Shown piece after piece: positions 1 through 9,555 of a stretch of DNA of 27,121 bases (position 1 is its first letter; each line of letters starts with the position of its first letter). Source of the DNA: a virus. The notes beneath the pieces were generated by a model. The model was not told where the DNA came from. It was given only the letters and a program-made list of their open reading frames with translations, and made no database searches. The translations under genes were made by a program, and so were the position numbers. The stretch spans positions 1 to 27,121 of the IMG/VR virus record IMGVR_UViG_3300044614_000782. One strand, written 5' to 3'.

Positions 1-151
1 CAGCACAACCAGAGCTACCACTGAAGGCAATCGTGTTTACATCTAGTTTACGCAGGAGGATACTAGCTGCTTGCCTGAGGTTGTCCATTTTATGCATGAA
101 CTCATCAGGCGTACCAGAGGTCCAACCGTAGTTACTGGCGGAGCGCTTCAT
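1..151 (-). CDS. Partial hypothetical protein, possibly phosphoribosyltransferase-like
   Basis: Only the first 50 codons are in the window; the gene runs off the left edge. The ATG (151-149) overlaps the TGA of the upstream gene (148-150) in an ATGA junction, and a GGAG inside the upstream gene's end serves as ribosome binding site, so the two are translationally coupled. The visible product starts MKRSASNYGW, has a helical stretch with Leu, Arg and Lys (about residues 20-36), then VNTIAFSGSSGCA. A short beta strand followed by a Ser/Gly-rich turn of this kind occurs early in small phage phosphoribosyltransferase-like proteins, but 50 residues are too few to decide. The existence of the gene is well supported; the function is a guess. 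Confidence 0.6.
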   Translation of the reverse strand, partial: MKRSASNYGWTSGTPDEFMHKMDNLRQAASILLRKLDVNTIAFSGSSGCA

Positions 152-567
152 TTAGCTTCTCCAATCAGTTGTTCAACACTGAACGCAAGGTTGTTGGGGA
201 TGATATAACGATCACCACCAGCGTCATTGTCGAAGAAGGCTAGGACGTAGTAGTTCCTTGTGATACGACCGTAGTAGTCGGGTTCTGTGGGCAGGTCTAC
301 GAGCTTGACCCCTTCAGGCAGGTTAATGAGGTGGATATCGGTGGGACGTTCGAGGAGGTGGAGGACACCACCACTTTCTTCGATCAAGGCATCAGGATCA
401 GTATAGGCCAGATCAAAGGCACATTCTTGGAGCCACTCCTTGATCTCTTCGTTAGGAGCAGCTGCGACGGTCTGGAAGGTGTACATGTGTAGATTCCTCT
501 TGGATGGTTCGCCAAATGCACTCAAAATAGCTCCCTTCAGGCATTCTCTGCAGTTAAACTCGCTCAT
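148..567 (-). CDS. Hypothetical small early-region protein (139 aa)
   Basis: No family is recognised. The chosen start is ATG 567 (MSEFNCRECL); a TTG at 588 would add seven residues but has no better ribosome binding site. Residues 5-9 hold a short Cys-x-x-Cys (CREC), which alone does not prove metal binding. The C-terminal third has the stretch NDAGGDRYIIPNNL, which resembles NNSGGPIFIVSNDL in the gene at 1009-1398; a loose paralogous relation is possible. The protein is acidic, without membrane segments or signal peptide. It lies in the minus-strand operon of small genes and overlaps the next gene by four bases. Confidence 0.75.
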   Translation of the reverse strand: MSEFNCRECLKGAILSAFGEPSKRNLHMYTFQTVAAAPNEEIKEWLQECAFDLAYTDPDALIEESGGVLHLLERPTDIHLINLPEGVKLVDLPTEPDYYGRITRNYYVLAFFDNDAGGDRYIIPNNLAFSVEQLIGEAK

Positions 568-662
568 ACTCGGCCCGGTTACAGCCAAAGTAGCTACAAG
601 CAGTGGCTAATGCAGTAGATTTACCTGAAGGGATCACTATTTACGACCTACGGTCGGCGAAG

Positions 663-1007
663 CTACATCATTACTGCAGGGAGTTTCATGAAGGAGCTAT
701 TCCCGGTAGCCTCTGCACGGATATCTGCGAGGGATTTCGCCCACGCAAGAGCATCTTCGACAGAAAGGAACTCTGCGGTAGAGGGACTCTTTAGAAATTC
801 CATCAGGTGACGCTCGTTGTAGCGGTTGTCGATGTGGACAATGGCAGGGCGACTCATGATGTGGGTCTCTTCAGGGAAGCAGTAGTCAGTTTGCATACAA
901 CCGACGTACCAGAGGATCTTCGGTTGGTCGTTGATGATGGTCATCACCGGGAGGATAGCAATCTGGATAGCTTCCATGAGTTCCTTCAGGGTCTTGGTGT
1001 TAGACAT
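663..1007 (-). CDS. Hypothetical small early-region protein (114 aa)
   Basis: No function is recognised. The start is ATG 1007 (MSNTKTLKEL), preceded by GAGGTGA at good spacing. A longer in-frame opening up to 1064 would run through the end of the previous gene and lacks this signal. The stop of the upstream gene (1011-1009) lies one base before this ATG, so translation is probably coupled. The product has an amphipathic N-terminal helix, a hydrophobic stretch around ILPVMTII, then a mixed alpha/beta region ending in helix-rich EDALAWAKSLAD. No catalytic motif, signal peptide or convincing membrane segment is seen. Confidence 0.75.
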   Translation of the reverse strand: MSNTKTLKELMEAIQIAILPVMTIINDQPKILWYVGCMQTDYCFPEETHIMSRPAIVHIDNRYNERHLMEFLKSPSTAEFLSVEDALAWAKSLADIRAEATGNSSFMKLPAVMM

Positions 1008-1008
1008 G

Positions 1009-1398
1009 TTACTCACCTCGGTCGAAAGTATCACAACCAGCATACGGGTCGTAGTTGGTCTCATCTACACTGTCGTCAATGTCATTCCTCGTTCCTTGGA
1101 TCTCGTCGTACAGATCGTTGCTGACAATAAAGATCGGTCCACCGCTGTTGTTGGTGATGTAACCGTACGCCATGTGGTGATCCAACTGTCGGAATATCTC
1201 CGGTTCGCTACCATAATCAGCGAACATCTTTTGGAACTCTTCTTTGCTCTCCACCATGAGGACGTTACCACCAAGGTGAGGCATAAAGAGAGCTTGCTCG
1301 TGTGGCTCATCGACGACACTCTTCATGAACCCTTCGATGTAATCCACGAGGGATTTGTCGTAGCCTTTCAGGTCTTGCAGCATTTCAAAGCGTCGCAC
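1009..1398 (-). CDS. Hypothetical small early-region protein (129 aa), GTG start
   Basis: The preferred start is GTG 1398 (MRRFEMLQDL) because GAGGAG sits seven bases upstream; a TTG at 1413 is in frame but overlaps that signal, and the first ATG (1383) has none. The upstream gene's TAA (1405-1403) is four bases before the GTG. The product is acidic. A central GGNVLMVESKEEF segment and a later NNSGGPIFIVSNDL segment echo the organisation of the protein at 148-567 (ESGGVLHLLE then NDAGGDRYIIPNNL). The C-terminus is Asp-rich (NDIDDSVDETNYDPY). No enzymatic motif or known domain is recognised. Confidence 0.75.
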   Translation of the reverse strand: MRRFEMLQDLKGYDKSLVDYIEGFMKSVVDEPHEQALFMPHLGGNVLMVESKEEFQKMFADYGSEPEIFRQLDHHMAYGYITNNSGGPIFIVSNDLYDEIQGTRNDIDDSVDETNYDPYAGCDTFDRGE

Positions 1399-1402
1399 GG
1401 TA

Positions 1403-1579
1403 TTACTCCTCAACAGACAGTTGCGAGATGGAACTCTTCGGGAACACGTTGTGGACCATCACTTCGACCTTCTTGACTGCATCCTCCATGTCGATAGCTT
1501 CGATGGTGTAATCGCGGTAGATCATGAGAGGGATTTCCTTCAGGGGCCGGAAGGACACAGCGATCTTGAATGCAGCCAT
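1403..1579 (-). CDS. Hypothetical small protein (58 aa)
   Basis: The start is ATG 1579 (MAAFKIAVSF), with GAGGAT placed five to six bases upstream; this signal lies in the last codons of the preceding gene, whose TAA ends one base before the ATG. The in-frame opening extends to 1678, but that part overlaps the neighbour completely and has no start signal. The product looks like a compact alpha/beta fold: strand (FKIAVSFRP), strand (YRDYTIEAI), helix (MEDAVKKVEVMVHNV). The function is unknown. Tight packing with both neighbours shows it belongs to the operon. Confidence 0.7.
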   Translation of the reverse strand: MAAFKIAVSFRPLKEIPLMIYRDYTIEAIDMEDAVKKVEVMVHNVFPKSSISQLSVEE

Positions 1580-1580
1580 G

Positions 1581-1835
1581 TTATCCTCGTGGGCGCTTGG
1601 ATTGAATCGGGTTGTCTTGACGATCTCGGTAGAGATCCTCGAAGGCACAATCGCGAAGAAACCTACCGAGTTCTCCACTAGTGATTTTGTTAGTGTCGGC
1701 GAAGTTGAGCTTCACCAGTTCGACAGCATCGCGCAGACCACAGTTGAGGAATGACCTCACTACACCAACAACAGCAAGATATTCCACTTCGTTGGTTGCA
1801 GCTGGTGCTACGTACGGCTCAGGGATTCTAACCAT
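1581..1835 (-). CDS. Hypothetical small protein (84 aa)
   Basis: It starts at ATG 1835 (MVRIPEPYVA), with a modest AAGTGAG nine bases upstream. Residues 15-45 look helical (EYLAVVGVVRSFLNCGLRDAVELVK) and resemble the general shape of a small helix-bundle regulator, but no DNA-binding motif is clear. The C-terminus is basic (QSKRPRG) and encodes the ribosome binding site of the next gene. The 65 bases upstream of this start (1836-1900) separate it from the gene at 1901-2245 and contain an inverted repeat (1863-1887). No function is assigned. Confidence 0.72.
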   Translation of the reverse strand: MVRIPEPYVAPAATNEVEYLAVVGVVRSFLNCGLRDAVELVKLNFADTNKITSGELGRFLRDCAFEDLYRDRQDNPIQSKRPRG

Positions 1836-1862
1836 GCTAATCTCACTTGAGTAGTTGAGGGT

Positions 1863-1887
1863 GTTGGTTAGTTATAGTCCAACCAAC
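1863..1887 (-). other. Intergenic hairpin between two minus-strand genes
   Basis: On the minus strand GTTGGTT (1887-1881) pairs perfectly with AACCAAC (1869-1863) around an 11-base loop. It lies between the stop at 1901 and the start at 1835. There is no T-run behind it, so it is not a classical intrinsic terminator; an RNA processing or stability element is possible. Seven pairs can occur by chance, so confidence is limited. Confidence 0.4.
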
Positions 1888-1900
1888 AATGACTAGTTAA

Positions 1901-2245
1901 TCACTTGACCGTGTAGAACCACACATCCGGGCTGAAACCACCGGCAGCAACGAACTGGACTTCCTTCTGCTCCTTGCCAGCTTTCGCCAGCATCTTCCAC
2001 AGCTCACGACCGACTTCCACGCTCGGGAGACGATCGACGTTGCACTTGCGGATCTTCGTGTCGGAACCGATGACACGAATCTGACGCAGCTTCTCGTCGA
2101 AGTGCATGGCCACGATCTTCACCGAGGCACTCACGCGGTCTTCGGCTTGATAGCGAGTACGGAACTGAGCGACCGGCTTCTCGGTGATCATCTCACCGTT
2201 CAGAGCGGCTTTGGTGGTCTTGGTGTTGAAGGTGATCGACGTCAT
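1901..2245 (-). CDS. Hypothetical basic small protein (114 aa)
   Basis: No family is recognised. The preferred start is ATG 2245 (MTSITFNTKT), with AGAGGATAG upstream. A GTG at 2281, in frame and preceded by TAAGGAG at normal distance, is a real alternative that would add 12 residues (SLHNPTQEDST region). The product is basic, with predicted strands in the first half (ASVKIVAMHF, RQIRVIGSD) and a helix with Lys/Glu (GRELWKMLAKAGKEQKE) before a final strand pair (VQFVAAGGFSPDVWFYTVK). The beta-rich basic character would fit nucleic-acid or inhibitor binding, but that is speculation. A tetraloop hairpin (2296-2321) lies in its leader. Confidence 0.75.
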   Translation of the reverse strand: MTSITFNTKTTKAALNGEMITEKPVAQFRTRYQAEDRVSASVKIVAMHFDEKLRQIRVIGSDTKIRKCNVDRLPSVEVGRELWKMLAKAGKEQKEVQFVAAGGFSPDVWFYTVK

Positions 2246-2295
2246 GGTACTATCCTCTTGGGTTGGGTTGTGGAGACTCACTGTGAGCACTCCTT

Positions 2296-2321
2296 AGAGC
2301 ACCCTCCGGAGAAGATGCTCT
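2296..2321 (-). other. Stable leader hairpin with UNCG-type tetraloop
   Basis: On the minus-strand RNA, AGAGCAUCUUC (2321-2311) pairs with GAGGGUGCUCU (2306-2296): eleven pairs including two G-U wobbles, closed by C-G around the loop UCCG (2310-2307), a member of the extra-stable UNCG tetraloop class. It lies between the stop of the 38-aa gene (2332) and the start of the 114-aa gene (2245), just upstream of a TAAGGAG sequence. No U-tract follows, so it is more likely an mRNA stability, processing or translation-control element than a terminator. Confidence 0.55.
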
Positions 2322-2331
2322 GTAGGAAGAC

Positions 2332-2448
2332 TCAGACGAGCACGTAGTCGCTGCAGTACAGCGGATCAACGCGACGAAGGAACGACTCAGCAGCTGCCCT
2401 GTTCGAGAACGTGGCAACGAGCTTGTCGTTGAGGTAAATGCGAACCAT
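2332..2448 (-). CDS. Hypothetical miniprotein (38 aa)
   Basis: A short reading frame from ATG 2448 to TGA 2332. Translation: MVRIYLNDKLVATFSN, then RAAAESFLRRVDPLYC and a short tail ending in YVLV. The start has a strong GGAG six to seven bases upstream, formed by the end of the preceding gene. The layout strand-turn-strand-helix suggests a tiny folded domain, for example a beta-hairpin plus helix, and not random translation. It follows the 35-aa membrane miniprotein by two bases (TAA TC ATG), consistent with coupled translation. Function unknown. Confidence 0.65.
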   Translation of the reverse strand: MVRIYLNDKLVATFSNRAAAESFLRRVDPLYCSDYVLV

Positions 2449-2450
2449 GA

Positions 2451-2558
2451 TTACTCCTTGTCGGTGTTGGAACGAGAAACGATGGAAGCGCCCTTCATGA
2501 AGAGCACGATGAGTAAAGCACCTACGAGCCAGACCAGAAACACGTTGAACCAGAACAT
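2451..2558 (-). CDS. Small single-pass membrane miniprotein (35 aa)
   Basis: ATG 2558 to TAA 2451, with an excellent AAGGAG seven bases upstream. The product begins MFWFNVFLVWLVGALLIVLF, a continuous hydrophobic segment long enough to span a membrane, followed by MKGASIVSRSNTDKE, a positively charged and polar tail that would stay in the cytoplasm. Phages often encode such tiny inner-membrane proteins in early operons (superinfection exclusion, host takeover, lysis control), but nothing here singles out a role. It is the first gene downstream of the ribozyme cleavage site, so its mRNA would start with the ribozyme's stem I hairpin. Confidence 0.65.
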   Translation of the reverse strand: MFWFNVFLVWLVGALLIVLFMKGASIVSRSNTDKE

Positions 2559-2589
2559 GTCAATCTCCTTGAGTGACGGTTGTTGGCTT

Positions 2590-2646
2590 GCCTCATCAGT
2601 GCGTAGGGAGCCACCCTATCGCAGACCCTCTCACGAGGGTTTCGGC
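2590..2646 (-). ncRNA. Type II hammerhead self-cleaving ribozyme
   Basis: Read on the minus strand 5' to 3': GCC (2646-2644, stem II 3' strand); GAAA (2643-2640, core positions 12-15.1); stem III CCCUC (2639-2635) and GAGGG (2630-2626) closed by the GNRA loop GUGA; U16.1 (2625, pairs with A15.1 at 2640); C17 (2624), making a GUC cleavage triplet; stem I UGCG-A-UAGGG (2623-2614) with CCCUACGCA (2608-2600), nine pairs with one bulged A (2619) and loop UGGCU; CUGAUGA (2599-2593, core positions 3-9); GGC (2592-2590, stem II 5' strand, including the G10.1-C11.1 pair). Every conserved core base of the hammerhead family is present in the order of the type II (stem II open) permutation. Cleavage is expected between 2624 and 2623. 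Stem II is only 3 bp; an outer helix of 2660-2655 with 2581-2576 may extend it. It starts two bases after the TAA at 2651-2649. Confidence 0.9.
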
Positions 2647-2648
2647 GG

Positions 2649-2993
2649 TTAGCGAACCACGAGGATCTTCTTGATGCTCGCGTCCTTCAGTCTGCTGTAC
2701 AGAGCAATCGCATCCTCGGCGAACCACTCGTAGCTGGTGACCTCTTCCGGGTAACCCTCGCTGTCGAGCTCCTCTCCGTGGACCATGTAGAGGACGTCCG
2801 AGCGGTTGTCCCTAACGTACACAGTCTCCAGTTCGGGCTTCTCGTTGCGGCTAGGCAGCGAGAGGACGTAGGTCAACGCAACAGCGGGGTCCACGAAGGC
2901 TCGGGCCTCACGGTCGTTACCGGTCCACACGAGGATGAACGCGGTGTAGGGGAGGGTGGCGAAGAGTTCGCCCATCGTCGGGGTGCGGGTCAT
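2649..2993 (-). CDS. Hypothetical early protein (114 aa), first gene of the minus-strand operon
   Basis: The start is ATG 2993 (MTRTPTMGEL), with AAGGAG seven bases upstream; the in-frame opening to 3101 has no such signal. The product is acidic, with a beta-rich centre (ELETVYVRDN and DVLYMVHGEEL) and a C-terminal helix plus basic strand (KDASIKKILVVR). The segment DNRSDVLYMVHGEEL resembles the NxxGGxxxI(V/I) segments of the proteins at 148-567 and 1009-1398, so the three may share a fold. No catalytic motif is recognised. Its stop codon lies two bases upstream of the ribozyme, so self-cleavage would leave this gene on its own short mRNA. Confidence 0.75.
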   Translation of the reverse strand: MTRTPTMGELFATLPYTAFILVWTGNDREARAFVDPAVALTYVLSLPSRNEKPELETVYVRDNRSDVLYMVHGEELDSEGYPEEVTSYEWFAEDAIALYSRLKDASIKKILVVR

Positions 2994-3269
2994 GGCTATC
3001 TCCTTGAGAGCCGGGTTGAAGGGACTCCAGCAAGACGCTAGAGCCACAGGGTTGCAAGCAAGGGGGTCCGAAAAGAAACAACCCCTAAACCAACAAACCA
3101 CGAAAATTTTCAGACATACACAGGCTCACCCATAGAAACCTAGGGGGAACTTCTCCAAAAAGGTACCTCCACAGGATTCTTCAAAGATCCTGTTGTGCAA
3201 AGCAGCTGGTAACAGCTGACCCCTAATAGAATAGAAATTCTTATAGGACACTACGTACAGGACACATGC
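2994..3269. other. Non-coding divergent region between early operon and terminase
   Basis: These 276 bases separate the minus-strand operon from the plus-strand structural genes. No reading frame with a start signal is seen. The region holds a perfect 10-base palindrome GAAAATTTTC (3102-3111), a hairpin (3171-3193), two CAGCTG palindromes exactly 10 bases apart (3203-3208 and 3213-3218), and AGGACAC twice just before the terminase start. It is the natural place for divergent promoters, but I could not identify a convincing sigma-70 -35/-10 pair on either strand. A packaging or terminus site here is possible but not shown. Confidence 0.5.
3171..3193 (+). other. Hairpin in the terminase leader
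   Basis: ACAGGAT (3171-3177) with C3179 pairs with GATCCTGT (3186-3193) with a single bulged T at 3178 and loop TTCAAA. No T-tract follows. It lies about 80 bases upstream of the terminase start and just before the paired CAGCTG sites. It could be an operator-like inverted repeat or an RNA hairpin. Confidence 0.4.
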
Positions 3270-4913
3270 ATGGCAACCAAACTCTCTAACACCGAAAGGC
3301 TCGCCCTCGCAAGGGAAGCCAAACGTAGAGAAAAGCTTGCTGAGTACAAATCTAACTTTAAGTCTTTTGCAGAAGAGCAAATCAAGATTCTCCCCAAAGA
3401 CGTCTCTAAAGGATTTGTTCCCTTCAAGTTTAACTCTGCACAGGAAATCATCAATAACGCCATTGAAGATCAACTCGCAAAGACCGGCAAGGTACGAGCT
3501 ATTATCCTTAAAGCTCGCCAGATGGGTATTTCAACATACACTACTGCCCGAGTCTTCTGGAAAGCTTACTTCAATGAACACCACAAGTCAGTCGTTATGG
3601 CCCACGATGCGGCTACTTCTGACGCCCTCTTCAACATGTCTAGGAACATTATTCAGTACATGCCTGAAGACTTCCAACCGGAGCTAAAGAAATCTAATGC
3701 TAAAGAAATTGGATTTGAACACAATGATAGCGGTTATAGGCTCTATACCGCTGGCTCTCCTGAAGCTGGTCGTGGTACTACTCCAACTATTGCTCATTTG
3801 TCTGAAGTTGCCTTCTGGGGCCATGACAGTAAAATCCTCGCGGGACTCTTCCAAGGAATCTCCGAAGCTGACGGTACCGAAGTAATCCTTGAAAGTACCG
3901 CCAACGGTGTTGGTAATGAGTTCCACCGTCTATGGCATGACGCTGTAGCTGGCCGTAACGACTACATCCCTATCTTCGTACCTTGGTTCCTCATGACGGA
4001 ATACCGTAGGGAAGCCCCTGTTGGCTTTGACCCCACTGAAGATGAGCAAAAACTAAAAGAACAATTCCAACTAGACAACGACCAACTATATTGGCGTCGC
4101 CTTAAGATTGCTGAAAGTGGTCACACTAAGTTCCGACAAGAGTACCCCGCAACAGCTGAAGAAGCTTTTGTCGTTAGTGGTTCTTCTGTGTTTAATCTAG
4201 AAAAGATCCGTAAGCTTATCCCTCAACCAGTAGTAGCCCAAAAGGAATTCAACTTCCAGAGCTACATGTTTGAAGATAATAAGGAAGGCTCTCTAGAGAT
4301 TTTCAAGTATCCTAAATTCGACGATGCCTTCGTCTTAGCTGCAGATACTTCCCTTGGTGTAGGTAGAGACTACTCTGCTGGTGTAGTTATGAATGTACAA
4401 CGACAAATTGTTGCTGTATACCGTAATAACTACATTGACCCTACTAAGTTTGGTGATCTCTTGTTTTACCTTGGAAGGTACTTCAATAATGCCCTCCTTG
4501 CTGTAGAAAACAACTCTATGGGTATTGCCACACTAAACCGACTAGTACAGATGAATTACGTTAACCTGTACAAACAAACTAAGACAGCTAACATCAGTAA
4601 AGAAGAAGGTGAACGACTAGGTTGGAGGACTACAAGTGCTTCCAAGCCTGCCATCATTGGACACCTTAAGAACGCCATTGAGCATGAAGACATCTGGATT
4701 CCTTCCAAACATGTTATCCATGAAATGTCTACATATATCTCTGACGACAACGGTAAAACTGAAGCTGCTCCCGGTTATTGTGACGATACGGTTATCGCTA
4801 CAGCTATTGCCCTTGAAGTCTTAAGGACTCACGGAGATAAGCTCTCTGTCAATAAGGTTCCCTTTGGGCAGCGTACTGACCTAATCCCAACACAAGAAAC
4901 TACTTGGCTGTAA
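3270..4913 (+). CDS. terL: Terminase large subunit
   Basis: This is the ATP-driven DNA-packaging motor that docks on the portal and cuts concatemeric DNA. The 547 residues match the usual large-terminase size. ATPase domain: Walker A-like KARQMGIST (81-89), where the usual GK is GI, a variant known in some phage terminases; Walker B TIAHLSEVAFW (173-183) with catalytic Glu179; coupling-motif region STANG (209-213). RNase H-like nuclease domain: Asp359 in AADTSLG, Glu413 in AVENNSMG and Asp505/506 in CDDTVIAT, the expected acidic triad. The start at 3270 has AGGA seven bases upstream; an out-of-frame ATG at 3265 would give only seven codons. It is the first gene of the rightward block. No small terminase is found in the window. 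Confidence 0.95.
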   Translation: MATKLSNTERLALAREAKRREKLAEYKSNFKSFAEEQIKILPKDVSKGFVPFKFNSAQEIINNAIEDQLAKTGKVRAIILKARQMGISTYTTARVFWKAYFNEHHKSVVMAHDAATSDALFNMSRNIIQYMPEDFQPELKKSNAKEIGFEHNDSGYRLYTAGSPEAGRGTTPTIAHLSEVAFWGHDSKILAGLFQGISEADGTEVILESTANGVGNEFHRLWHDAVAGRNDYIPIFVPWFLMTEYRREAPVGFDPTEDEQKLKEQFQLDNDQLYWRRLKIAESGHTKFRQEYPATAEEAFVVSGSSVFNLEKIRKLIPQPVVAQKEFNFQSYMFEDNKEGSLEIFKYPKFDDAFVLAADTSLGVGRDYSAGVVMNVQRQIVAVYRNNYIDPTKFGDLLFYLGRYFNNALLAVENNSMGIATLNRLVQMNYVNLYKQTKTANISKEEGERLGWRTTSASKPAIIGHLKNAIEHEDIWIPSKHVIHEMSTYISDDNGKTEAAPGYCDDTVIATAIALEVLRTHGDKLSVNKVPFGQRTDLIPTQETTWL

Positions 4914-4937
4914 AAACAAATAAGGAGCATTCCTATA

Positions 4938-5258
4938 ATGTCAACTATTACTATTAAAAAGAGGGCTAATGCTTCCTTTGCTTGCGTCAAGAAAGACTCA
5001 AATGGAACCCCTCAAGATGTCACAGCAATTACGATCTATGCTGCCCTACGTGAAGTAGGTAGCCTAGCTCTAGTAACTCCTTTGACTGTAGAAAAGGATC
5101 CCGGTACTGGTGGTACATTCCGTGTACTAGTGTCACAGGCACAAAGTACGGGCCTACGACCAGTAACTTATATGGTCCAAATCGAGTATACCATTGGTGC
5201 AACTAAAGAGATCCTTGACCCGTTCCCTGTTCAAGTAGTAGAGACTGGTGAGGTGTAA
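4938..5258 (+). CDS. Small Ig-like structural protein (106 aa)
   Basis: AAGGAG lies upstream of ATG 4938. The sequence is rich in short beta strands ([43 protein letters not shown]) separated by turns with Gly, Pro and Asp, and ends in [11 protein letters not shown]. This pattern resembles the small beta-sandwich proteins that sit beside collagen-like phage fibres or form head/baseplate decoration domains. It is followed after two bases by the collagen-like gene, whose ribosome binding site is in its last codons, suggesting that the two products work together. Specific attachment point on the virion unknown. Confidence 0.6.
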
Positions 5259-5260
5259 CT

Positions 5261-6292
5261 ATGGCTACAGAAATTACTGTTGTACAAAATAGTTACACAG
5301 AAGTTTCCTCTGAAGAAGTAACGCTAGAAGTAACTACACTACCTGCTGCTCAACTAGAAATTTCTGATAGGGTACTTTCCCTTGTTGGTGCTACTGGACC
5401 GCAGGGTCCACAAGGTATTCAAGGTCCGGCGGGGCCAACAGGTCCACAAGGCCCTCAGGGTATCCAAGGTGTGGCTGGTCCACAAGGTCCTGCAGGTGCT
5501 ACTGGTCCACAAGGCCCTCAAGGCGATCCCGGACCGGCTGGTCCTGCGGGAGCCACAGGTGCTACTGGAGCTACTGGGCCACAAGGACCACAAGGAGATC
5601 CTGGGCCTCAAGGACCACAGGGAAACCCTGGACCTACAGGTGCTACTGGAGCTACTGGTGCAGCAGGTGCTACCGGTGCTACTGGACCTGCGGGTGCGCC
5701 CGGAAGTGTATGGTATTCTGGCTCAGCAGTCCCTTCTGCTGGTCTGGGCATTAACGGAGATTACTACCTTCGGGATACTAACGGAGATGTCTTCTTCAAG
5801 TCTGGTGGCTTATGGTCTGTCATTGACAACCTAACAGGACCACAAGGTATCCAAGGTATTCAGGGCATTCAAGGTATCCAAGGACCTGCGGGTACTAATG
5901 GTACTAATGGAACAAACGGTACTAATGGTGTAGGTGTACCCACAGGTGGTACTACTAACCAAGTGCTAGCTAAAGTATCTAACACAGACTTCGACACTGC
6001 TTGGGTAACTCCTTCAGGTGGTGGCGGTGGTAGTGGTATTAAAACTACAGCTACTATTAATGTGCCTCACTTGTCTTTCGAGCATGAGCAAACGGTTACC
6101 TTTACAGGTTGTACTCCTACTACAGCTGTTGTAGCAACTGTAGCACCACATCTAGACACGGATGAGAATGGTCCTGAAGGTATTGATGTAATTGCCCTTG
6201 TAGCGACTCCCGGTACGAATAATGCTTTTGTCAAAATTAATTTTCGCGAGCAGGCTTCCGGTCCAGTTCGCATTCAACTAATCGGAATCTAA
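5261..6292 (+). CDS. Collagen-like fibre protein
   Basis: Domains in order: a short beta-type N-terminus (residues 1-42), a run of about 36 uninterrupted Gly-X-Y triplets (43-150; nucleotides 5387-5710) of GPQ, GAT, GPA and GDP type, a compact insert (151-192, including [18 protein letters not shown], a motif frequent in phage fibres), a second run of about 11 triplets (193-225) with four GIQ and four GTN repeats, a linker ([15 protein letters not shown]), and a beta-rich C-terminal domain (258-343) probably for trimer registration or binding. Collagen-type segments in phages form trimeric rods in tail or head fibres. It lies between terminase and portal, suggesting a head- or neck-associated fibre. 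The Gly-Asn and Gly-Gln forms lack hydroxyproline, as usual in bacterial viruses. Confidence 0.88.
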
Positions 6293-6298
6293 AATACT

Positions 6299-7045
6299 AT
6301 GAAACTATCTCGTAATCTTTCTGTTGGTCTGCTCGACCCTCGCGAGAATCTATTTATTGCGGGTAACCTCGGTGCCCTTAACGCTGAAGTTGTAACGGAC
6401 TGCGACGGTGCTTCCTTTGTGTCTATCGACCTACGAGGCACATTTAGTATGACGGTAGCCATTCAAGGAACGGTTGACGGTACCAACTGGCAGCTAATCC
6501 CTGTGCGCCCTAATACGGGTGGTATTTTCCTGCTAGGTATTGTTGGTACTGCTCCCGGTATTTGGTCAGGATCTTGCGCAGGTTACCGTCGTGTTCGAGC
6601 TATTGTTACAGCTTATACTTCGGGTACTGCTGTTGCGACCCTAATGGCTTCTAACGCTGATTTTGATGATGGTGCTCGTTATGGAAGTGTAACACCTTCT
6701 ATTGGTACTGCCGTAGGTGCTGCTGGTGCCGCTGTTACCCTAACGCTTGCAGCTCCCGGCGTTGGTCTTCGACACTATCTAACTTACTTGTCTATCAATC
6801 GTTTTGCTACAGCCCTTCTAACAGCTGCTGCTGCCCCTGTAACAGTTACTACAACTAACCTACCCGGTTCACTAGCTTTTTCGTTTCCTGCAGAGGCTGC
6901 TGCGCAAGGCACTATTGATCGTTGGCGAGAAGACTTTGCTTTTCCAATCGTTTCGGCAGCTCAAAATACGGCAACTACAATTGTTGGCCCTGCTACAACA
7001 AACGTTATTTGGCGTATTACAGCGGGCTTCTTCGTTGCACCGTAA
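6299..7045 (+). CDS. Putative virion structural or decoration protein (248 aa)
   Basis: No close family is recognised. The product begins MKLSRNLSVGLLDPRENLF and is strongly beta-rich: SFVSIDLRGTFSMTVAIQG, then DGTNWQLIPVRP, a pattern of strands seen in jelly-roll carbohydrate-binding and fibre-tip domains. The second half contains Ala/Gly/Thr-rich segments (VGAAGAAVTLTLAAP) and ends in WRITAGFFVAP. It follows the collagen-like gene by six bases, with no clear ribosome binding site of its own, suggesting translation coupled to the fibre gene. It may cap the fibre or decorate the head. There is no signal peptide or membrane helix. Confidence 0.6.
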   Translation: MKLSRNLSVGLLDPRENLFIAGNLGALNAEVVTDCDGASFVSIDLRGTFSMTVAIQGTVDGTNWQLIPVRPNTGGIFLLGIVGTAPGIWSGSCAGYRRVRAIVTAYTSGTAVATLMASNADFDDGARYGSVTPSIGTAVGAAGAAVTLTLAAPGVGLRHYLTYLSINRFATALLTAAAAPVTVTTTNLPGSLAFSFPAEAAAQGTIDRWREDFAFPIVSAAQNTATTIVGPATTNVIWRITAGFFVAP

Positions 7046-7057
7046 AAGGTTACAAAA

Positions 7058-7207
7058 ATGAACAAACAATTCTATAACGATAAAGCTTCAACTCAAGCTA
7101 TTAAAGAGTTCCTGAAGCCGAACCCTACAGGGAAGAATGTGCAAACACTTCCCAAACAGACACAGCAACCCGTTAAGGAACCTAATCTTCCCGTGCGTGG
7201 TCGCTAA
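7058..7207 (+). CDS. Hypothetical miniprotein (49 aa)
   Basis: ATG 7058 to TAA 7205-7207, with AAAGG upstream. It starts MNKQFYNDKASTQAIKEFLK and then becomes polar, Pro/Gln/Lys-rich (LPKQTQQPVKEPNLPVRGR), so it probably has one short helix and a disordered basic tail. It lies between the decoration-like gene and the portal in the same direction. Unknown function; an assembly cofactor is possible, but this is not supported by any motif. Confidence 0.55.
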   Translation: MNKQFYNDKASTQAIKEFLKPNPTGKNVQTLPKQTQQPVKEPNLPVRGR

Positions 7208-7215
7208 AAGATCCC

Positions 7216-7284
7216 ATGTGTCCTGCCTGTTTTGCCAGTTGTACAGGTGTGGAAAAAACAACTTGCACTAACACACAAGAATGA
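7216..7284 (+). CDS. Possible cysteine-rich micro-ORF (22 aa)
   Basis: ATG 7216 to TGA 7282-7284 encodes MCPACFASCTGVEKTTCTNT plus two residues, with four cysteines in 22 residues, including CPAC. There is no good ribosome binding site. It occupies the otherwise empty 119-base gap before the portal gene (7208-7326). It may be chance; it is listed because tiny Cys-rich proteins occur in phage structural modules and the rest of the gap has no other explanation. Confidence 0.22.
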   Translation: MCPACFASCTGVEKTTCTNTQE

Positions 7285-7326
7285 TTGTCTGCTTGATCCC
7301 TTAGGTGGGAGAGGATAAATACCAAC

Positions 7327-9555
7327 ATGCCTAAAATGAAAACACGACAAGAATACGAGCCTATCACAGATGAAAAGCTTGTATCCCTCGTCGAAGCCGG
7401 CCTCCGTGATTCTTCCGGAGATTGGCTTGCAGGTACCGAGCTTTCCGGAGAGCGCCAAAAGGCTACTCTAGAATATGGAATGCTTTCTAAAGGTCACCTG
7501 CTACCCCAAGGTGTCTCTCAGATTGTTTCTTCTGACACTGTTGAGGTCGTCGAAGGTTACACTGCTATCATTGCAGAACTCCTATTCAACAACAACAAGA
7601 TTGCTAAGTTTAAACCTGTCACCAGCTCCCCGAAAGATATGCATCAAGCTCGGGTTGCAGCTGATCTAACTAACTACACAATCTTTAAACTAAACCCCGG
7701 TTGGTCTATCCTCAACACTTGGATTAAAAGCGCCCTACTGTGGAAGAACAGTATTATTCGTTGGGACTTCGTTGAAGACCACGAGTACATGTTTGAAGAC
7801 TTTGAAGAGATCGATCAAAGCTCTCTTGATAATATGCTTGCTGAAGAGGACGTAGAGGTTGTAGGTACCCTCGAATACGAACCTCGTGTCATGAACCTCC
7901 CAGACGGTACACAAACATACGCTAACTTCTACAAGGATGTACGTATTCGTCGAAAGGTAAGTAAGTCAAGGGTTGTTATTGCTAACGTACCTCCTGAAAA
8001 CTTCCGTATCAGCAAGGATGCTACTAGTTTTGAAGATGCCATGTTTAGTGGTATCGAGACAGAACTTACTGTAAGTGAACTTCGTAAGATGTTCCCTGAA
8101 CGCGACGACATTGATTGGGATGAGCTTGGTACAATGGCTACCAACACTAAACTAATGTCTAGCGAAGAGTCTACTCGTAAAATCCTCTCTGGTGTAGAAG
8201 CCCACGCACAAGGTCGTGGACAAGCTATCGACATCGAAGCTAACAAAGGTGTAACAGTTGTTGAGTGCTGGATGCGTGTTGACCGTGATGGTGACGGTAT
8301 CTCAGAACTCAAGCATATCTTTGTTGCTGGTAATACACTGATCTTCGAAAAAGACGCTACGTGTGTTCCCCTTGCAAGTCTATGCCCATTTGAGATCCCG
8401 CACGAGTTCATTGGTCTTAGTGCAGCTGATATGGTACGTCCTTCGACGCTAGCTACTACAGCTATCCTTCGTGGCTTCGTAGAGAATGTATACCTAACCA
8501 ACTATAGCCCTAAACTAGCTGACCCTAACGTAGTAGACTTTTCTGCCCTTCAAAACATGAAGCCTAAGCAGATTGTCGCTACTAACGGTAATCCTAACGG
8601 TGCTGTAGCTCCAATGACTCCTGACACTATTAGTCAGGGTACAGTACCTCTTATTGAGTTCCTCCAAACTCACAAAGAGCAAGCTACAGGTCTTTCAAAG
8701 GCAGCTCAAGGTCTTAACGACGTCCTCTATGTCAGTGGTAACTCTGAGCAGAAAGTATCACAAGTACAATCTGCTGCTCAAGTACGTATCCAGTACATGG
8801 CTCGTAGGTTCGTTGAAACAGGTATTAAGCGTCTTGTTGAAGGTGTCTATAAGACTCTTCGTGAGCACCTTAAGAGCGGTGAAGAAGTAGAGTACTACGA
8901 TGCTAAGTCGTTCCTACAAAGTGTAGACCCTGCTACCCTACCTTCTAATATGCTCCTTGACATTGATGCTGATGTAGGTGACCACGGTAACTCCAGCACA
9001 GTTAAAAAGATGCAGATTGTTGGTAAGGAGATCATCCCTGCTCTACAACAAGCAGGTGCTGGTGCTGCAGTAAGTCCTAAAGCTGCTATCAATATTGCTG
9101 CTAAGACAATTGAAGCCCTTGACTTAGACCCTCTTGATTACCTCGAAGATTACACTTCACCGGAATTCGAAGAGAAAGTTAAGAAGAGCCGTGATAATGA
9201 AATGCAAGCTGCAGAGAAAGCCCGACAGCTAGATGAGGAAGTTAAACGCCTAGACATCAAGCAACGTGAAGCTACTATTGCCCTGACAAACATTCAGAGC
9301 AAGAACGCCATGCAAGATAACGCACGACAAATGGTTATCGCCATGAACGAGCACTATAAAGAGTGGGCTAAGATTTCTATCGATGCTCAGAAGGAAGGTA
9401 TTAACCCGCCTCCTGCACCTGATATTGAAAAGCTTTGGCAAATGGCGATGCAAATTGTTGCTATGGATGCTTCGGCACCTCTTGGTAACCCGGAAGTGGA
9501 AATCAAAAAGGATGAACCTGCAGCTGCACCACCTCCAACCGATGCGGTTCAATGA
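7327..9555 (+). CDS. Portal protein (head-tail connector)
   Basis: A 742-residue protein of the size of podovirus portals. The portal is a dodecameric ring at one capsid vertex through which terminase pumps DNA and to which the tail attaches. Supporting features: an N-terminal helical region, the wing/clip-like segment SALLWKNSIIRWDFVEDHEY (about residues 137-156), typical of portal proteins that carry a hydrophobic patch followed by an acidic strand, the calcium-loop-like acidic stretch DRDGDGISEL (about 319-328), a long stem/helical region, and a C-terminal coiled coil (EKVKKSRDNEMQAAEKARQL onward) ending in a Pro/Ala tail. It precedes scaffold and capsid genes, the usual order. GAGAGGAT lies 11-12 bases before ATG 7327. 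Confidence 0.88.
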   Translation: MPKMKTRQEYEPITDEKLVSLVEAGLRDSSGDWLAGTELSGERQKATLEYGMLSKGHLLPQGVSQIVSSDTVEVVEGYTAIIAELLFNNNKIAKFKPVTSSPKDMHQARVAADLTNYTIFKLNPGWSILNTWIKSALLWKNSIIRWDFVEDHEYMFEDFEEIDQSSLDNMLAEEDVEVVGTLEYEPRVMNLPDGTQTYANFYKDVRIRRKVSKSRVVIANVPPENFRISKDATSFEDAMFSGIETELTVSELRKMFPERDDIDWDELGTMATNTKLMSSEESTRKILSGVEAHAQGRGQAIDIEANKGVTVVECWMRVDRDGDGISELKHIFVAGNTLIFEKDATCVPLASLCPFEIPHEFIGLSAADMVRPSTLATTAILRGFVENVYLTNYSPKLADPNVVDFSALQNMKPKQIVATNGNPNGAVAPMTPDTISQGTVPLIEFLQTHKEQATGLSKAAQGLNDVLYVSGNSEQKVSQVQSAAQVRIQYMARRFVETGIKRLVEGVYKTLREHLKSGEEVEYYDAKSFLQSVDPATLPSNMLLDIDADVGDHGNSSTVKKMQIVGKEIIPALQQAGAGAAVSPKAAINIAAKTIEALDLDPLDYLEDYTSPEFEEKVKKSRDNEMQAAEKARQLDEEVKRLDIKQREATIALTNIQSKNAMQDNARQMVIAMNEHYKEWAKISIDAQKEGINPPPAPDIEKLWQMAMQIVAMDASAPLGNPEVEIKKDEPAAAPPPTDAVQ

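Follow-up and report, generated by a model that had tools for sequence, protein, structure and literature searches.

The window analysed here, a virus record of 27,121 bases taken at its full length, contains a complete type II hammerhead ribozyme on its minus strand (2647–2582), set between the first two genes of a leftward operon, and most type II hammerheads in a sample from viral contigs occupy the same kind of site, close behind one open frame and shortly before the start of the next. A 2011 paper on bacteria, prophages and metagenomes (Perreault et al., PMC3088659) described the type II class and its pseudoknot and proposed that such ribozymes cut long phage transcripts, and the window element is a member of this published class without substantial structural novelty. 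New here are the quantified stop-codon placement of phage type II hammerheads, a hammerhead in Roseobacter phage CRP-7, and a different folded RNA, motif X, which relatives carry at the corresponding position; the placement figures and the CRP-7-type marine podovirus group go beyond the type II account in the accessible sections of PMC3088659. We consider it probable that the ribozyme cleaves the polycistronic mRNA co-transcriptionally behind the first gene, gene A, as a step of message maturation and uncoupling.

All core bases of the hammerhead can be read directly from the minus strand. The Rfam Hammerhead_II model (RF02276), which the earlier note had proposed as a check, recovers the element in a search of the whole window with 37.7 bits, where the gathering score is 37 (E = 1.9e-4 across all Rfam families); RF02276 aside, no family reached its cut-off. 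The invariant CUGANGA and GAA segments, the A15.1–U16.1 pair and H17 are present both in the sequence and in the cmscan alignment, and loops close stems I and III while stem II is open, as in the type II permutation (Table 1). Stem II joins 2646–2644 to 2590–2592 (GCC/GGC), and stem III is formed by CCCUC/GAGGG under a GUGA loop together with the A2640–U2625 pair. The window contains one match to a degenerate hammerhead core pattern, against none in 100 dinucleotide shuffles, and the isolated 66-nt element has exactly the hammerhead as its best fold (−25.6 kcal/mol, z = −2.6, with 1 of 200 shuffles as good). The model score, the pattern shuffles and the fold statistics rule out a chance match, which the earlier note had already called very unlikely. 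Its identification of a type II hammerhead is borne out by the Rfam match, the core bases, the fold and compensatory base changes at four loci in other phages, and the parts it named (CUGAUGA at 2599–2593, GAAA at 2643–2640, a GUC triplet ending at C2624, and stems I–III) are all in place. The span that it gave, 2590–2646, does hold the hammerhead but overlooked a pseudoknot: loop I is complementary to a 3′ tail through five Watson–Crick pairs (U2613–A2584, G2612–C2585, G2611–C2586, C2610–G2587 and U2609–A2588), an interaction common but not universal in the class, and the element extends to 2582. Its remark that the roles of such hammerheads are mostly unknown was fair, but the architecture, pseudoknot and transcript-processing idea were already in print (PMC3088659).

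Table 1 Features of the ribozyme and of the genes around it, in window coordinates
Feature	Position	Strand	Basis
Type II hammerhead including pseudoknot tail	2582..2647	−	RF02276, 37.7 bits, and fold
Stem II, 5′ strand GCC	2644..2646	−	Sequence; pairs kept in five of five aligned
Catalytic core G12 A13 A14	2641..2643	−	Sequence
Stem III hairpin: A15.1–U16.1, 5 more pairs, GUGA (GNRA) loop	2625..2640	−	Sequence, fold, two compensated pairs
Predicted cleavage site, C17 (2624)/U2623	2623..2624	−	Hammerhead core, established knowledge
Stem I hairpin, 9 pairs, bulged A2619	2600..2623	−	Fold; one compensated pair; bulge position kept in relatives
Loop I UGGCU, pseudoknot strand 1	2609..2613	−	Complementary to 2584–2588; class-wide complementarity above shuffles
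Catalytic core CUGAUGA (C3 to A9)	2593..2599	−	Sequence
Stem II, 3′ strand GGC	2590..2592	−	Sequence
Pseudoknot strand 2 AGCCA	2584..2588	−	Sequence; unvaried in five window-like hammerheads
Gene A, 114 aa, first gene of leftward operon	2649..2993	−	Open frame, AAGGAG before ATG
Gene B, 35 aa, one hydrophobic stretch, first behind ribozyme	2451..2558	−	Open frame; AAGGAG at 2570–2565
Gene C, 38 aa	2332..2448	−	Open frame; similar small L327 gene read by eye only
Gene D, 114 aa, conserved in terL-divergent operon of relatives	1901..2245	−	Local tblastn
Terminase large subunit gene (terL), divergent from ribozyme operon	3270..4913	+	Pfam Terminase_6N, phrog_2

The plus strand carries terL followed by portal, scaffold, major head and tail genes, and the minus-strand order leading away from terL is A, ribozyme, B, C, D and more small genes. 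With terL on the other strand and small same-strand genes behind Shine–Dalgarno-like sites, the earlier description of a phage small-gene operon stands, and the position and the small genes suggest that the operon is probably early. A homologue search found no relatives of gene A; gene D is 30–43% identical across an alignment of seven and 56% identical in its counterpart from L327, the best operon relative. The gene A stop codon (2651–2649) lies 2 nt ahead of stem II, and the Shine–Dalgarno-like AAGGAG of gene B lies 13 nt past the pseudoknot tail. G+C content reaches up to 57% around 2001–3000, against about 42–48% in most of the structural-gene region.

To place the element within its class, we used a pattern scan of viral contigs (at least 119 stretches, with a fairly strict core pattern) and a sample of 197 distinct type II hammerheads that remained after stem filters among the matches listed, a count that includes those of the window, the related record L161 and CRP-7. 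In 160 of the 197 hammerheads among the matches listed (81%), CGAAAC lies no more than 10 nt behind the end of an open frame of 50 codons or longer; the same arrangement is seen at 7.4% of random same-strand sites and at 7.1% on the opposite strand. Counting one hammerhead per homologous cluster among the matches listed, 58 of 69 have an upstream stop within 10 nt. On the other side, a start codon with a Shine–Dalgarno-like site follows within 150 nt in 187 of the 197 among the matches listed (95%, versus 57% for random sites), with the start codon a median 27 nt beyond CUGAUGA in the same set. Type I hammerheads give a rough comparison, the two patterns differing in stringency: 33 passed the stem filters and 13 of these have a stop codon within 10 nt. 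Complementarity of at least four pairs between loop I and the tail is present in 43% of the 197 among the matches listed, against a mean of 15.6% and a maximum of 23% in 500 tail shuffles, and the pseudoknot is therefore supported across the class.

Four loci from other phages (L063, L011, L205 and L206) share nearly the stem I of the window, including its bulge. In an alignment of the five window-like hammerheads, which comprise four distinct sequences, 23 of 23 pairs are kept, including the pseudoknot, with 100% of cells paired; three pairs are compensated (two in stem III and one in stem I), and stem II and the pseudoknot are invariant. Several contigs hold two or three hammerheads that flank single genes, with L063 and L206 each carrying two copies around one gene. 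Compared with published type II hammerheads, the window element has the same part order, core bases, GUC triplet, short open stem II, loop I/3′ tail pseudoknot and intergenic position, and multi-copy flanking recurs in other phages (PMC3088659); the bulged nucleotide of stem I aside, its structure does not differ substantially. The tandem prophage hammerheads of Agrobacterium, Azorhizobium and Clostridium scindens, which flank single genes and also lie at gene boundaries of phage-like operons, cleave in vitro, that of Agrobacterium also in E. coli (PMC3088659), whereas the 27-kb window carries just one.

The anatomy of the element suggests how it may act on the message. Hammerheads of type II cut after H17, leaving a 2′,3′-cyclic phosphate and a 5′-OH, and this established chemistry predicts that the RNA is cut between 2624 and 2623, just past gene A. 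The ribozyme would act once, in cis, on the leftward and probably early polycistronic phage mRNA: as the polymerase clears the tail, stems I–III and the loop I/tail pseudoknot would form and the RNA would be cut after C2624, parting the gene A message from the message that runs from gene B onward. Gene A mRNA would then end in stem III with the cyclic phosphate, and the downstream product would begin with its 5′-OH directly on stem I, just ahead of the gene B ribosome-binding site, where stem I could retain the pseudoknot with the tail. Because the permutation is type II, both new ends would carry closed hairpins flush with the cut, an outcome that, from topology, only this permutation gives; the hairpins at both ends and the placement between stop codon and ribosome-binding site argue for co-transcriptional separation with protected ends. 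We infer that cleavage takes place in infected cells and serves mRNA maturation and message uncoupling, the likely purpose being independent translation and decay of two messages whose new ends would both be protected by hairpins.

Counted against this processing role are the RF02276 score just over its cut-off, the absence of the ribozyme from most terminase relatives, and an alternative fold of 2660–2580: when upstream coding sequence is included and the pseudoknot ignored, a pairing that breaks stem II is better by 4 kcal/mol. The same points (the marginal score, the patchy distribution among relatives and the competing fold) would suit a decayed or inactive relic. We judge this very unlikely, given that the core bases are intact and that, in window-like hammerheads of unrelated phages, stems I and III are compensated and the pseudoknot is unvaried. 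The competing fold could instead indicate a translation-controlled switch, with the gene A end base-paired to stem II and the pseudoknot tail so that the ribozyme stays inactive until a ribosome clears this pairing, and the best 2660–2580 fold does pair UGGUU and GCU from the gene A end with AGCCA and GGC. However, the energy comparison leaves out the pseudoknot, and coding-end/tail complementarity across the 197 hammerheads among the matches listed is 4.12 against 4.11 when shuffled. Anti-ribozyme pairing under translation control was rejected as a class feature on these figures, and a switch of this kind is highly improbable in the window.

A ribozyme that serves mainly one side, either trimming the gene B leader as an insulator or defining the gene A 3′ end, is unlikely. 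Among the matches listed, the nearby Shine–Dalgarno site (its start codon a median 27 nt beyond CUGAUGA) and the flush upstream stop make either side a possible target, but tight spacing at both sides favours a boundary element, and we saw no one-sided conservation. RiboJ, a hammerhead-derived insulator of synthetic circuits, leaves a 5′-OH and a hairpin before the ribosome-binding site on self-cleavage; insulators of this type are engineered and, unlike the window element, are not intercistronic type II elements. Type I and III hammerheads are typical of viroid-like and retrozyme RNAs, and a hammerhead could in principle derive from such a mobile or circular RNA (retrozyme or viroid) and have no regulatory role in the phage. 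Against this origin, which we hold to be extremely improbable, instead of tandem hammerheads bounding a repeat unit the 27-kb window contains only one, which fits exactly into the gap between two genes on the same strand, and type II hammerheads lie at cistron boundaries phage-wide. Circular or spliced products of the bacterial cases were sought and none was found, according to the accessible sections of Perreault et al. (PMC3088659).

Roseobacter phage CRP-7, a podovirus whose group has been described as new (PMC6918029), is the nearest isolate that we found, identities being about 60% for the terminase, 50% for the portal and 53% for the capsid; positions 1–8000 of the window have no nucleotide match in the GenBank phage collection. 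CRP-7 (MK613349) carries an unannotated hammerhead at 570–633 that scores 50.1 bits with RF02276 and directly follows the stop of an unannotated short hydrophobic frame (421–570), close to genes that diverge from terL. The annotated gp02 start at 619 is the AUG within the CUGAUGA core, and the in-frame AUG at 658, which has a better ribosome-binding site, appears the likelier start. L161 has a hammerhead that scores 35.7 bits, below the RF02276 cut-off, immediately after the stop codon that closes the first gene in its terL-divergent operon, ahead of a small hydrophobic protein. Other terminase relatives gave no RF02276 match at E 0.01 (80 records in all, many of them fragments). A universal hammerhead in the phage group was rejected, as only CRP-7 and L161 match RF02276 among the terminase-relative records, and its absence from most of these relatives indicates that the ribozyme is not essential to the operon.

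In L327, a different folded element, motif X, lies behind the first gene and again before gene D. Copies are found at L327:5243–5293, L327:5783–5839, L328:2043–2095, L367:2467–2523 and 33 further loci, with the consensus UAAGnn(n)YUnUGY-hairpin-AGAGC-G(n)nCUU-GCUCU: a stop codon within UAAGnn, a hairpin, and a second hairpin whose loop GnnCUU pairs with AAGnnC as a pseudoknot. A model built from twelve instances retrieved 60 instances, 49 of them distinct, at 36 loci. Base pairing, pseudoknot included, is preserved in 96% of cells, with 9 of 15 pairs changing on both sides; the covariation score was reached by no shuffle in an alignment fitted to a model with two of the three helices, the pseudoknot excluded, and in the pseudoknot helix outside that model three pairs have changed on both sides. 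In 49 of 49 instances motif X begins at or near the end of an open frame of 45 codons or more (in 42, its first three bases form the stop codon), and a start with a Shine–Dalgarno-like site follows in 48 of 49. At 33 of the 36 loci there is a homologue of the window terminase (66–75% identity), with motif X on the strand opposite terL.

Judging from gene order relative to terL and gene D, motif X appears to sit in the same slot as the hammerhead, and its conserved fold and place make it a candidate new processing RNA or ribozyme. At twelve loci, under permissive thresholds, none of 4227 Rfam families matched on motif X. By eye, it bears no convincing match to pistol or twister, a comparison that serves as a lead only. 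RF02276 had no match in the X-bearing records tested, the hammerhead core pattern is absent from the X loci, the window, L161 and CRP-7 gave no match to motif X, and hammerhead and motif X occur together in none of the records examined. The best motif X match in the window (12.5 bits, 4838–4887, plus strand) lies inside terL and was judged to be chance. In the terminase-selected sample L120–L199, motif X is clear only in L124, and neither element is therefore universal. That the first cistron boundary is a slot for interchangeable self-cleaving RNAs, with motif X as an undescribed self-cleaving class or intrinsic mRNA-processing RNA doing the same job, is a speculative extension that we consider unlikely.

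Other elements were seen between genes of these phages. Behind gene D, the window has a possible H-type pseudoknot (1895–1863, minus strand; UAGUC/GACUA and GUUGGUU/AACCAAC) with a counterpart at L327:6264–6310 in which GUU/AAC has changed to GAU/AUC, both read by eye. An element of the form ACCUGUAG-hairpin-CUAUGGGUA recurs behind gene D in L121, L124, L331, L335, L338 and L339, another of the form CUCUUC..GAGAGACC..CUUGGGGUA..GUACCAAG recurs before gene D in L328, L329, L330, L343 and L344, and GGGUAUGUCACACCCUGUUAACGUGACG recurs before small genes in L342, which is on the same contig as L159.

The placement statistics mark phage type II hammerheads as cistron-boundary elements, and the question of their function becomes directly testable. 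CRP-7, with its cultured host strain FZCC0042, carries a strong hammerhead match, which puts the mapping of 5′ ends in infected cells within reach. At the corresponding position, close relatives carry a conserved pseudoknotted RNA of another kind, which offers a concrete candidate for a new processing RNA or ribozyme.
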